This document shows positions 35,532 to 43,019 of a stretch of 64,000 nucleotides of DNA, one piece after another. Numbering within the stretch: position 1 is the stretch's first letter; each line of letters begins with the position of its first letter. The position numbers were made by a program, and so were the translations under genes. Source of the DNA: Limnobaculum xujianqingii (lineage in GTDB: Bacteria; Pseudomonadota; Gammaproteobacteria; Enterobacterales; Enterobacteriaceae); NCBI RefSeq assembly GCF_013394855.1, contig NZ_JABMLK010000002.1, positions 868,001 to 932,000 on the forward strand, read 5' to 3'. The notes under the pieces were generated by a model. That model searched no databases. It had not been told where the DNA came from and was given only the letters and a program-made list of their open reading frames with translations.

Positions 35532-36146
35532 TTATACTGATTTAAAATTCATTCCTTTAAATACGCGCAGGGGATTTCCCCGTTCTATTTGATGATGGAA
35601 CATACGGCGCTCCGCTTTTAGTTCAGCTCCGGCCTGCTGGCGCAACTGTTCCAGACGGTGTGCTATCAATAATATCGCCAGGCGTTTATTAGCATGTTGA
35701 CTTCTTTCTGATTGAACTTTGACGCTGATTCCTGTCGCAATATGAGTTGCCCGAATTGCTGAGTCAGTCTTATTAACGTGTTGTCCGCCAGGGCCTGAAG
35801 CACGTAATGATTCAAATTGAATTTCACTCTCCAACTTCGGATTGTTTTGTTCAAATTGAGCAATGCCAATAAACCAATTCTTACGTTCATGGTTAGGTCG
35901 ATAGGGACTACTACATATCCATAATATCGAACCGCACCAGTTATCAGCCAACTGTGTCGCAGCCGTTCCGCTAAGGGAAATCAGTACTGAACGAAATCCA
36001 TCTGGTCGTCGGGAGGGCTCAGTTTCCAGACATTCAACCTGCACATTTATCGCATTAGCTTCTTTTATCAATTGTTTTAGCGCTTTGCCAACGGCCAGAC
36101 AGCATTCATCTGGCCCCTGAGCAGAAGAGATCTGCAATAGTATCAT
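35532..36146 (-). CDS. prfH: PrfH, release-factor homologue of the RtcB-PrfH rescue system
   Basis: This 204-residue protein has the catalytic GGQ loop ([19 protein letters not shown]) of peptide-chain release factors and a basic C-terminal stretch, but lacks the codon-recognition domain of RF1/RF2. PrfH homologues encoded with RtcB2 have been reported to release peptides from ribosomes cut in the decoding centre, so that RtcB can reseal 16S rRNA. Its ATG overlaps the rtcB stop by four bases, so the two are coupled. Confidence 0.92.
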
Positions 36147-37282
36147 TCGCTTTTCCCTCCACTGGTTTTATAGGTTAAAACAGGTTTCAGCCGCGCCAGA
36201 ATTTTGATTAATCCTGCTCCAACCATGCTATCGATCACAGTCTCAATCGATTTATAAGCCTGTGGCGCTTCTTCATAAATCAGTTGGCGATCCTGACAGA
36301 TAACCCGGCTTCCTAATTCAGTACGGCTTAACTGAATCGGAGAAAAACGCTCAGACAAGCGGCCTTTACACTCAGTCCGCATCCATTTTCTACCCGCACC
36401 GTGAGCCAGTGAGTGAAGACTGATATCTGATAATGTTGGCATGACCAGGTAGCTATAATTGCCGCGTGAGCCCGGTATAATCACCGGTCCCTTATTGGCA
36501 GGGCTGGCACCTTTACGGTGCAGCCAGCCATTAGCCCCATTAATCTGTGCTGCTTCAACCAGATTATGGTTAATATCCAACAGACATTCTCCGGTTGTCT
36601 TGATTTGTTCCAGCAGTCGTTGAGCTATAAGGCGGCGATTTAGTTCGGCAAAGCTTAGAGCCTGATGATGCTCATTCAGGTATTCTTTCGCTTCGGGAGA
36701 ACCTGTTATTACACCCCCATGGTTAAAGCGTTCAACATGACGACGTAAAATTGCCTGACCTAATCCTCGCGATCCGCTATGCACTAATAGCTGAAGTTGT
36801 TGTGGGATCAGCCCTAATTGATTGGTTATATCAGGATGATAAACCTGATCTACCTGCTGTAACTCTGCAAAGTGGTTTCCACCGCCAACAGAACCGAGAG
36901 CATCAGAAAAAGGCGAGTTCATCATTTCATCAGGGAGATGCTGCTGTAGCCATTCTGAGCTGGCAAAGTCTCTCATGCGAGAAATACTTTTTTCTAACTT
37001 ATCCAGATTTGGCCGTTTAGTTTGTATGGTGGTTTGCCATAAGCCCATTCCACAGCCAATATCATTACCCACTAAAGCGGGATAAAAACGGTTTACTGAA
37101 AAAAATGCTGCACCAACCGGATAGCCTCTGCCGGGATGCAGGTCTGGCATGCCTACTACCTGAACCATATCCGGCAGTGAGGCGGTTGTATTTAATTGTT
37201 GGATCGCGTTGCTTTCGATCCAGGTGTCATCCGACGCGATATAAGATACGCGTTCAGATAAAGGACGAATAAAATTGCCCAT
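36143..37282 (-). CDS. rtcB: RtcB2-type RNA ligase
   Basis: This is a 379-residue RtcB ligase, which joins 3'-phosphate and 5'-hydroxyl RNA ends with GTP and Mn(II). The metal Cys is in GNDIGCGMG, metal histidines in GGGNHF and HSGSRGLG, and the guanylylated His in [10 protein letters not shown]. It is shorter than the canonical housekeeping RtcB (about 408) and encoded with prfH, as in RtcB2-PrfH operons that counter ribotoxins such as colicin E3. I chose ATG 37282 ([12 protein letters not shown]) with GGA seven bases upstream; 37294 is an alternative. A leader peptide precedes it. Confidence 0.9.
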
Positions 37283-37303
37283 ATACCAATCCATATATTG
37301 GAG

Positions 37304-37375
37304 AAAAAATAAAATCGAATTGGCAGGCCGAAGCCAGGGAGTATAACGGGTAGGGTTAGTCCTGGGTACGCCTGC
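37304..37375 (-). promoter_or_regulatory. Candidate transcription attenuator before rtcB
   Basis: On the minus strand GCAGGC (37375-37370) can pair with GCCTGC (37328-37323), and inside it CCAGG (37365-37361) with CCTGG (37338-37334); the structure is followed by a T-rich tract TTTTATTTTTT (37314-37304). A local GGC-TTCG-GCC hairpin (37335-37326) competes with both stems. The left arms lie inside the last codons of the leader peptide, so ribosome position could decide between structures. Pairing is moderate, so this is a prediction. Confidence 0.45.
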
Positions 37376-37403
37376 AAAGGGTATTTAATTGAATTTGTTG
37401 CAT
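37356..37403 (-). CDS. Leader peptide MQQIQLNTLCRRTQD upstream of rtcB-prfH
   Basis: A 16-codon frame (15 residues plus TAA) starts at 37403 behind AAAGGAGG, a near-complete complement of the 16S rRNA 3' end, six bases before the ATG. It contains the adjacent codons TGC AGG CGT (Cys-Arg-Arg), the AGG being rare in enterics and read by the tRNA-Arg(TCT) type present in this window. The codons for CRRTQ form the left arms of the predicted attenuator. It ends 73 bases before the rtcB ATG. Confidence 0.6.
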   Translation of the reverse strand: MQQIQLNTLCRRTQD

Positions 37404-37409
37404 GATATA

Positions 37410-37417
37410 CCTCCTTT
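37410..37417 (-). promoter_or_regulatory. Full-strength Shine-Dalgarno of the leader peptide
   Basis: AAAGGAGG on the minus strand, six bases before the leader ATG, matches the anti-Shine-Dalgarno fully. It is far stronger than the site in front of rtcB itself, an unusual investment for a 15-residue product. Confidence 0.8.
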
Positions 37418-37451
37418 GTCAGTGAATTGTGGGTTGAGTAAAAACGGCGGC

Positions 37452-37480
37452 ATCATAGACCCCCCTCTAATAAATAGCAA
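37452..37480 (-). promoter_or_regulatory. Sigma70-type promoter of the rtcB-prfH operon
   Basis: On the minus strand TTGCTA (37480-37475) and TATGAT (37457-37452) are separated by exactly 17 bases, a good -35/-10 pair. Transcription should begin near 37445, leaving a leader RNA of about 160 bases before rtcB. No sigma54 (-24/-12) element was seen, unlike the RtcR-controlled rtcBA operon of E. coli. Confidence 0.6.
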
Positions 37481-42707: not shown

Positions 42708-43019
42708 ATGAGAAAATTAACCGTAGCAGAAATTGAATCTGTATCTGGCGCAGGAATCTTTACTGATGCTTTTCGCGATTTTGGTCAGGGGATCGGCGAT
42801 GCTATTGATATCGGTAATACTCCAGGAAATAAAGGTGAATACGGTGCCGCTATTGGAACTGCGATTGGAGCATTAGCCGATGGTGGACTGAATTTAATCA
42901 AAGGTATTGGCGATTTTGGTGTGAATGGTATTGCTCAAATAGGCGCACCAGTTATTGATTCGGTTTTTAATGGTGTTGCGGCTATTATTAAAGCTATCAA
43001 TCCATTAAAAATTGGCTAA
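42708..43019 (+). CDS. Microcin-like peptide precursor with double-glycine-type leader
   Basis: The 103-residue precursor starts MRKLTVAEIESVSGAG, the class II microcin leader pattern, so cleavage after GA would free an 88-residue peptide starting GIFTDAFRDFGQGIG. The mature part is rich in Gly, Ala and Ile, has no cysteine and repeats short GIG/GAI units that suggest a membrane-active helix pair. The ribosome-binding site AAAGGAG is strong. It is inserted between ynbC and ynbD, framed by a terminator before and a stem-loop after. No exporter or clear immunity gene is adjacent. Confidence 0.8.
   Translation: MRKLTVAEIESVSGAGIFTDAFRDFGQGIGDAIDIGNTPGNKGEYGAAIGTAIGALADGGLNLIKGIGDFGVNGIAQIGAPVIDSVFNGVAAIIKAINPLKIG

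Follow-up and report, generated by a model that had tools for sequence, protein, structure and literature searches.

A leader frame over alternative RNA pairings before rtcB2-prfH, a probable translational attenuator in Limnobaculum xujianqingii and its relatives

In Limnobaculum xujianqingii the rtcB2-prfH gene pair is preceded by a short reading frame with a strong Shine-Dalgarno (SD) sequence, which raises the question of whether the state of the ribosome is linked to the expression of the two genes, and by what means. An earlier note on this DNA had proposed such a link. We judge the link likely, and find an SD-led leader whose codons are overlapped by mutually exclusive RNA pairings.

The locus and its leader frame

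The leader, a promoter-like site, rtcB2 and prfH all lie on the minus strand of the window, by which we mean the whole 64,000-nt stretch of L. xujianqingii DNA that was analyzed (Table 1). The likely start of rtcB2 is the codon that opens MGNFIRPL at 37282, with an in-frame ATG further upstream at 37294, while prfH and the end of rtcB2 overlap by 4 bases. A second gene of the RtcB family is present elsewhere in the genome. On the plus strand of the window, at 42708-43019, we also observed a 103-residue ORF starting MRKLTVAEIESVSGAG, with a Gly- and Ala-rich core after a leader-like start that we take to resemble the double-glycine leaders of microcin-like peptides; searches of Pfam and NCBIfam gave no match for this ORF.

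Table 1. Features of the rtcB2-prfH locus and its leader in the window
Feature	Coordinates	Strand	Evidence
Putative sigma70 promoter, TTGCTA-17-TATGAT	37452..37480	-	9/12 consensus matches
Segment 1, CUG/CAAAG/GGUAU around the leader SD	37407..37422	-	1:2 duplex -12.9 kcal/mol in the window
Leader SD AAAGGAGG, within segment 1	37410..37417	-	Sequence
Leader ORF MQQIQLNTLCRRTQD*, 15 aa, ATG...TAA	37356..37403	-	SD-led ORF kept in relatives
Segment 2, left arm of 2:3, GCAGGC (37375-37370) and CCAGG (37365-37361)	37361..37375	-	Outer 6 pairs in 16/16 rows of alignment A2
Segment 3, right arm of 2:3, CCUGG (37338-37334) and GCCUGC (37328-37323)	37323..37338	-	Swap test, alignment A2
Left arm of 3:4, GCCUGCCAAUUC	37317..37328	-	3:4 duplex -15.7 kcal/mol
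T-rich tract in the loop of 3:4	37304..37315	-	No terminator-like site found
Segment 4, rtcB2 ribosome-binding site (RBS) GGAUUGGU and start region (AU)GGGC	37277..37292	-	Pairs with segment 3
rtcB2	36143..37282	-	NCBIfam TIGR03073 release_rtcB (PRK09588/TIGR03073 type), 569.6 bits (cut-off 271.8)
prfH	35532..36146	-	NCBIfam TIGR03072 release_prfH, 318.4 bits (cut-off 166.65)

It was previously suggested that the leader is read from a sigma70 promoter. The proposed site has its -35 element at 37480-37475 and its -10 element at 37457-37452, separated by 17 bases. Since the scan that gave this site found 6 promoter-like sites, compared to 8.8 expected from shuffling, the site alone proves nothing. 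The suggestion gains from the orthologues, as such sites (at least 9 matches) are enriched upstream of the leader, being found in 16 of 64 non-redundant loci compared to 4.2 after shuffling. In loci such as L022 and L034 G/C-rich bases directly follow the -10 box, e.g. TATACGCGCG, a stretch that we presume to be akin to the discriminators of growth-rate-controlled promoters.

The relatives were represented by 113 rtcB2 loci, of which 30 came from the family of the window (the window included), 3 from E. coli and 80 from other records. As several genomes had been fetched twice, these amount to 93 distinct sequences, and to 64 after the removal of near copies. At all 113 loci the leader was picked from a 290-base upstream window, with AAAGGGGG accepted as an SD and Ile accepted at residue 3. 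A frame of 9-30 codons, led by an SD with a score of at least 4 and ending before rtcB2, was found at every one of the 113 fetched loci. For the non-redundant set the count was 64/64 compared to 4.1 in shuffled sequences, and with an SD score of at least 7 it was 48/64 compared to 0.1. The 15-residue frame with a strong SD that the earlier note had pointed out in the window is thus a feature kept by its relatives, and a chance ORF was rejected on the strength of this conservation and of the covariance-model matches given below. Around the leader SD the invariant columns in an alignment of 20 rows (A1) are AAGG and, one base on, GG.

Inside the frame many loci carry a TTGC[AG]G core, the TGC of which is in frame in 42 of the 43 non-redundant loci that have it, at codon 8, 9, 10 or 13; the single out-of-frame exception is L101. 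This argues for translation of the leader frame. The peptides themselves vary by lineage, with ...LC[RG]xxQx in the Enterobacterales, ...LILCRTSRD in Pectobacterium, ...ITLCRSRLA in Pseudomonas, MQKNTTSLWAGSAVAGL.. in the Comamonadaceae, MQKLNTTAPFLGLAG in Massilia and MRRNKSSYKPRLG in Photobacterium. At many Enterobacterales loci Thr, Asn, Gln, Tyr and His also seemed frequent at leader codons 2-6, the part of the frame in which a stall should count.

Spread of the leader among rtcB2 loci

The distribution of the leader was followed with a covariance model (R1) built from 16 rows, the window among them, and run with strict filters up to an E-value of 0.01, the E-values being rough. In the window the model matched at 37421-37313 with 101.2 bits, the window being one of its training rows. 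Among 392 genomes of the window's family R1 matched in 47, at one place in each and with the training rows included in that number. All 47 belong to the 54 genomes that have RtcB2 (match E-value of at most 1e-90), and none of the remaining 338 genomes was positive. In each of the 7 RtcB2 genomes that gave no R1 match (G206, G342, G163, G372, G315, G070 and G280) a leader frame was found on reading; the model misses divergent leaders owing to the strict filters and the E-value limit.

Outside this family, a 13-codon leader was found in 27 of 27 further RtcB2 loci of the Pseudomonadaceae (the family of locus L083). Searches across the class and the phylum gave few further RtcB2 loci, with clear leaders in L119 and L205, a possible one in L122 and a doubtful one at the distant locus L208. 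Because there are distant RtcB2 loci at which no leader was seen (L120, L121, L123, L206 and L207), not every RtcB2 gene comes with the element. In E. coli the 211-base leader region had a match in 5347 of 5426 genomes, and in 4066 a single place covered 80% or more of the region; plasmids accounted for 15 of the 5369 places matched. In a separate genome (G028:C1:4095107-4096297) an RtcB2 match with four in-frame stops adjoins a well-scoring leader, which points either to a leader that persists after its gene or to recent decay. No Rfam family matched the leader of the window up to an E-value of 5, and a known Rfam element was rejected for that reason.

Alternative pairings and the predicted effect of the ribosome

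The pairing segments that had been described before rtcB, GCAGGC with GCCUGC and CCAGG with CCUGG, were found in the window. Together they form the stem referred to here as 2:3, which the earlier note had taken for a putative terminator. Upstream of it, segment 1 (CUG.CAAAG..GGUAU) pairs with segment 2 (AUACC-CUUUG-CAG), and this 1:2 stem hides the leader SD. The stem that had been missed is 3:4, in which GCCUGCCAAUUC pairs in the window with GGAUUGGU-(AUAU)-GGGC, covering both the RBS and the start of rtcB2. As GCCUGC is common to both, full 2:3 and full 3:4 exclude each other. In several relatives it is UUGCCC that pairs with the start region AUGGGCAA, overlapping the inner stem bases of 2:3. 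In the Enterobacterales RNAalifold draws 2:3 together with the SD-proximal part of 3:4, showing that these two can coexist.

Taken alone, the leader of the window folds no more stably than shuffled sequence (z -0.37), and the evidence for RNA structure is therefore comparative. Part of it comes from an alignment-free partner-swap test, in which the duplex energy of the segments of a locus is compared to that obtained when segments are exchanged between loci. Across the 64 loci, true partners paired better for 1:2 (z -9.6), 2:3 (z -9.6) and 3:4 (z -7.4), while the control pairings 1:3, 1:4 and 2:4 gave +1.9, +1.2 and +0.4. In 33 divergent loci, at most 72% similar and with loci of the Pseudomonadaceae among them, the respective values were -6.3, -6.9 and -4.6 compared to +0.5, +0.6 and +0.4 for the controls, and for each of the three stems none of 5000 permutations equaled the real partners. 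Kinship is unlikely to explain the difference, since relatedness acts on the controls as well.

Covariation was also scored in an alignment (A2) of 16 enterobacterial rows of the 64 non-redundant loci, from which loci with insertions and divergent families were left out, as were 4 Proteus rows of the 20 in A1, where MAFFT had misplaced the right arm. All 16 rows paired in the outer 2:3 stem, where 2 of the 6 pairs showed double changes; for the SD-proximal 3:4 stem 83% of cells were paired, and 1 of its 6 pairs showed such changes. For the two stems jointly, paired cells and covariation score exceeded 500 of 500 shuffles, while the count of double-change pairs was reached by 25 and that of further pair types by 443 of the 500. 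Stem 1:2 showed no covariation in the enterobacterial alignment. At L119 a long perfect 2:3 stem is built from a different sequence. The check among relatives that the earlier note had proposed, for a conserved short frame and for covarying stems, thus came out in its favor, with the frame in 64/64 loci and all three stems standing out in the swap tests. By eye, insertions sit in loops: the 3:4 loop in L068, L089, L169 and the E. coli locus L117, and the 2:3 loop in L033 and L074. In L117 (1490-1900, E. coli O157:H7) the 3:4 loop holds a repeat, which we take to be ERIC-like; the annotation of this strain lists both rtcB2 and prfH as incomplete pseudogenes.

What a ribosome on the leader might do to these pairings was predicted by masking its footprint and refolding the 64 loci at equilibrium with ViennaRNA. 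With the P-site at the start codon the predicted fold held on average 14.1 expected pairs of 2:3 and 6.6 of 3:4, and over codons 1-5 the values ranged from 11.5 to 14.1 (11.5 at codon 5) and from 6.6 to 9.1. With the P-site on the last five sense codons 2:3 fell to 0.5-1.4 pairs and 3:4 held 12.5-13.1. The same prediction for 14 new loci of the Pseudomonadaceae, start compared to stop, was 14.0 and 0.1 pairs for 2:3 and 6.2 and 12.4 for 3:4. With no ribosome on the leader the predicted fold was mixed (2:3 9.95, 3:4 10.2 pairs). The naked leader of the window is predicted to be in 2:3, with 17.7 pairs, so that 1:2 would need to form first, during transcription.

Placing the ribosome at the leader start was predicted to expose the rtcB2 RBS more than placing it at the leader stop, with a mean difference of +0.069 over the 64 loci, compared to 0.0017 in 20 shuffled sets (sd 0.0148, highest 0.049). 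The difference was above +0.05 in 37 of the 64 loci and below -0.05 in none. For the rtcB2 start region, the mean unpaired fraction was 0.334 with the ribosome at the leader stop (0.487 shuffled) and 0.403 with it at the leader start, still below the shuffles (0.489). The predicted change on switching is therefore modest (mean 0.40 vs 0.33); in the window the gain in RBS exposure is only +0.05, and at L193 the exposure is reversed, 0.38 at the start and 0.42 at the stop. Together, the masked folds and the exposure values predict that a ribosome stuck early on the leader opens rtcB2 and that one completing the leader does not.

Mode of action and known counterparts

In attenuators of the ermC type a ribosome stalled on the leader peptide decides between a closed form, in which 1:2 and 3:4 are paired, and an open form, in which 2:3 is paired, segment 4 being the downstream RBS. 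The arrangement before rtcB2-prfH is alike in that 1:2, 2:3 and 3:4 co-evolve, without 1:3, 1:4 or 2:4, and in that segment 4 holds the RBS and start, predicted to be less exposed once the leader is completed, an effect that is modest and reversed in L193. It differs in that the leader peptides differ wholly between lineages, with no conserved stalling peptide, and in that no drug specificity is shown; homology is not claimed. The attenuators of the trp and his operons also have a leader ORF overlapping alternative stems, as here, but here neither a conserved run of regulatory codons nor a terminator was found.

We consider it likely that the leader acts as an ermC-like four-segment attenuator, probably at the level of translation. 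Comparison of sequences establishes the leader itself, its three pairings and their co-evolution, an exclusive link to rtcB2 in one family and canonical terminators that are not enriched; we infer the switching, damaged ribosomes as the natural signal, and a main effect on how translation of rtcB2 starts, not on transcription. Points against this reading are the modest predicted change in exposure, the coexistence of 2:3 with part of 3:4 in the Enterobacterales, the predicted 2:3 fold of the naked window leader, the weak parts of the covariation count, the slight excess of large-loop terminator-like sites, the transcriptional model published for P. aeruginosa and the distant loci at which no leader was seen. 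In such an attenuator the leader SD would act as segment 1 and the latter half of the leader frame as segment 2, with the right arm of 2:3 serving as segment 3 and the RBS and start codon of rtcB2 as segment 4. At rest, either 1:2 and 3:4 would form or a ribosome completing the leader would cover segment 2, and both ways 3:4 would close rtcB2. Under induction a ribosome would initiate on the strong leader SD but fail beyond about codon 5, whether drug-bound, damaged or short of usable tRNA, and would occupy segment 1; 2:3 could then pair, 3:4 would be broken or weakened, and rtcB2 with its coupled prfH would be translated.

A leader of this kind is already known in Pseudomonas. According to the published accounts, rtcB2 of P. 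aeruginosa is armZ (PA5471) and prfH is the adjoining PA5470, and about 250 bp upstream lies PA5471.1, a leader of 13 residues (PMC12057347, PMC3516279, PMC13041342). The system is published as driving the MexXY pump through MexZ. Stalled translation of PA5471.1 switches armZ on, for which the explanation given is a terminator (PMC12057347, PMC13041342). The leader of our locus L193 (MIQFSTLCRLRLA), whose third and fourth codons are CAG and TTC and which starts 254 bases from the gene, presumably is PA5471.1, as it agrees with the published description (13 residues, Q3, F4, about 250 bp upstream). The leader of the window is the counterpart of the PA5471.1-armZ leader. Like PA5471.1, with L193 identified by that description, it is a short SD-led frame followed by rtcB2 and then prfH, with alternative pairings and the common core ACCCTTTGCAGGC. 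It is unlike the published model in that consensus scans found no intrinsic terminator and in that 3:4 covers the start of rtcB2; in the window 73 bases separate the leader stop from the gene, compared to 212 in L193. The published induction of armZ by a stalled leader (PMC13041342) fits the translational-attenuator reading.

That the switch works on transcription, with a completed leader allowing a terminator and a stalled ribosome preventing it, so that read-through yields the operon mRNA, was proposed for the P. aeruginosa leader (PMC12057347, PMC13041342), and the armZ transcript is said there to rise in a leader-stalling mutant (PMC12057347). Overlapping helices fit this account equally well, and when loops of up to 40 are allowed terminator-like sites show a slight excess, being found in 35 of the 64 loci compared to 30.3 (sd 1.8) over 4 shuffled sets. 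On the other side, consensus scans with loops up to 40 found no intrinsic terminator-like site in the leader of the window, nor did a simple consensus scan in the leader region of L193, and canonical sites (loops up to 8) show no enrichment, at 7 of 64 loci compared to 9.6 (sd 3.0) shuffled. The T-tract, moreover, does not begin until about 8 bases past stem 2:3 and is located between the two arms of 3:4. On these grounds the terminator that the earlier note had read into 2:3 and the T-tract was rejected, and attenuation of transcription appears unlikely, although it keeps a real share of our expectation. The same note had 2:3 end transcription unless a ribosome stalled at the Arg codons AGG CGT, making the leader a sensor of tRNA-Arg loss. 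There is indeed an overlap between the Arg codons and the left arm of 2:3, but a ribosome there is predicted to do the opposite of what was claimed: it masks segment 2 and favors the closed form, with 0.3 and 0.0 expected pairs of 2:3 and 12.9 of 3:4 for the P-site at codons 11 and 12 of the window. Nor are the two codons conserved, as Arg-Arg follows the core Cys in just 5 of the 42 non-redundant loci with an in-frame TTGC[AG]G core, Gly (11 loci) or Ser (2 loci) takes the first place in 13 of the 42, and in L101, L119 and L205 the core RNA CUUUGCAG lies in another frame. An Arg-codon sensor was accordingly rejected as highly improbable, and what is constrained seems to be the RNA.

Initiation, rather than elongation, might also set the switch, if 30S subunits that lack the anti-Shine-Dalgarno left the leader SD free and the outcome depended on how the naked leader folds; the earlier note had similarly seen in the dependence on the anti-Shine-Dalgarno a sensor of 16S 3'-end cleavage. 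The leader SD is very strong and held in 1:2, and the naked leader of the window is predicted in 2:3, as this would ask; yet over the 64 loci the naked fold is the mixed one given above, and 1:2, once formed, favors a closed gene, making this a very unlikely account. Broader in scope, and doubtful on balance though conceivable, is that the ermC-like leader serves as a general sensor of ribosome integrity. RtcB2-PrfH counters a nick in the decoding centre of 16S rRNA, and ribosomes so nicked might start on the leader SD, be unable to elongate and open the switch. PrfH would then free the nicked ribosomes from the leader, RtcB2 would reseal them and the gene would close again, in which case drug-efflux induction in P. 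aeruginosa would be a later use of a repair circuit.

Other reports touch on the gene pair from different sides. In the portions of these sources available, RtcB2-PrfH protects E. coli ATCC 25922 against colicin E3, in a paper whose main text contains neither the word "leader" nor "upstream" (PMC9223846); neither "leader" nor "stem" appears where Baranov and co-workers describe the gene pair (PMC1586002); the truncated homologue ykfJ of E. coli K-12 responds to 4-azaleucine (PMC3516279); and a riboswitch-entropy screen placed in its top 50 per strand, uncommented, a stretch of K-12 some 100 bases upstream of the prfH-ykfJ operon (PMC4448311). In a literature search that mostly did not extend to subscription papers, no account of an rtcB2-prfH leader outside Pseudomonas was found. 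Nor did the cited sources, in the parts available, contain the wide occurrence of the leader before rtcB2-prfH, the joint evolution of its three stems or the stem that closes the RBS.

Closing of the rtcB2 start site would be a simple alternative to the terminator assumed in P. aeruginosa. The leader joins two mostly separate literatures, that on the PA5471.1-ArmZ-MexXY drug response and that on RtcB2-PrfH as a defence against colicin-cut ribosomes. E. coli strains with an intact operon are predicted to carry the same switch, which opens the question to tests in laboratory strains other than Pseudomonas, and the arrangement suggests how bacteria could sense damage to their ribosomes and turn on its repair.
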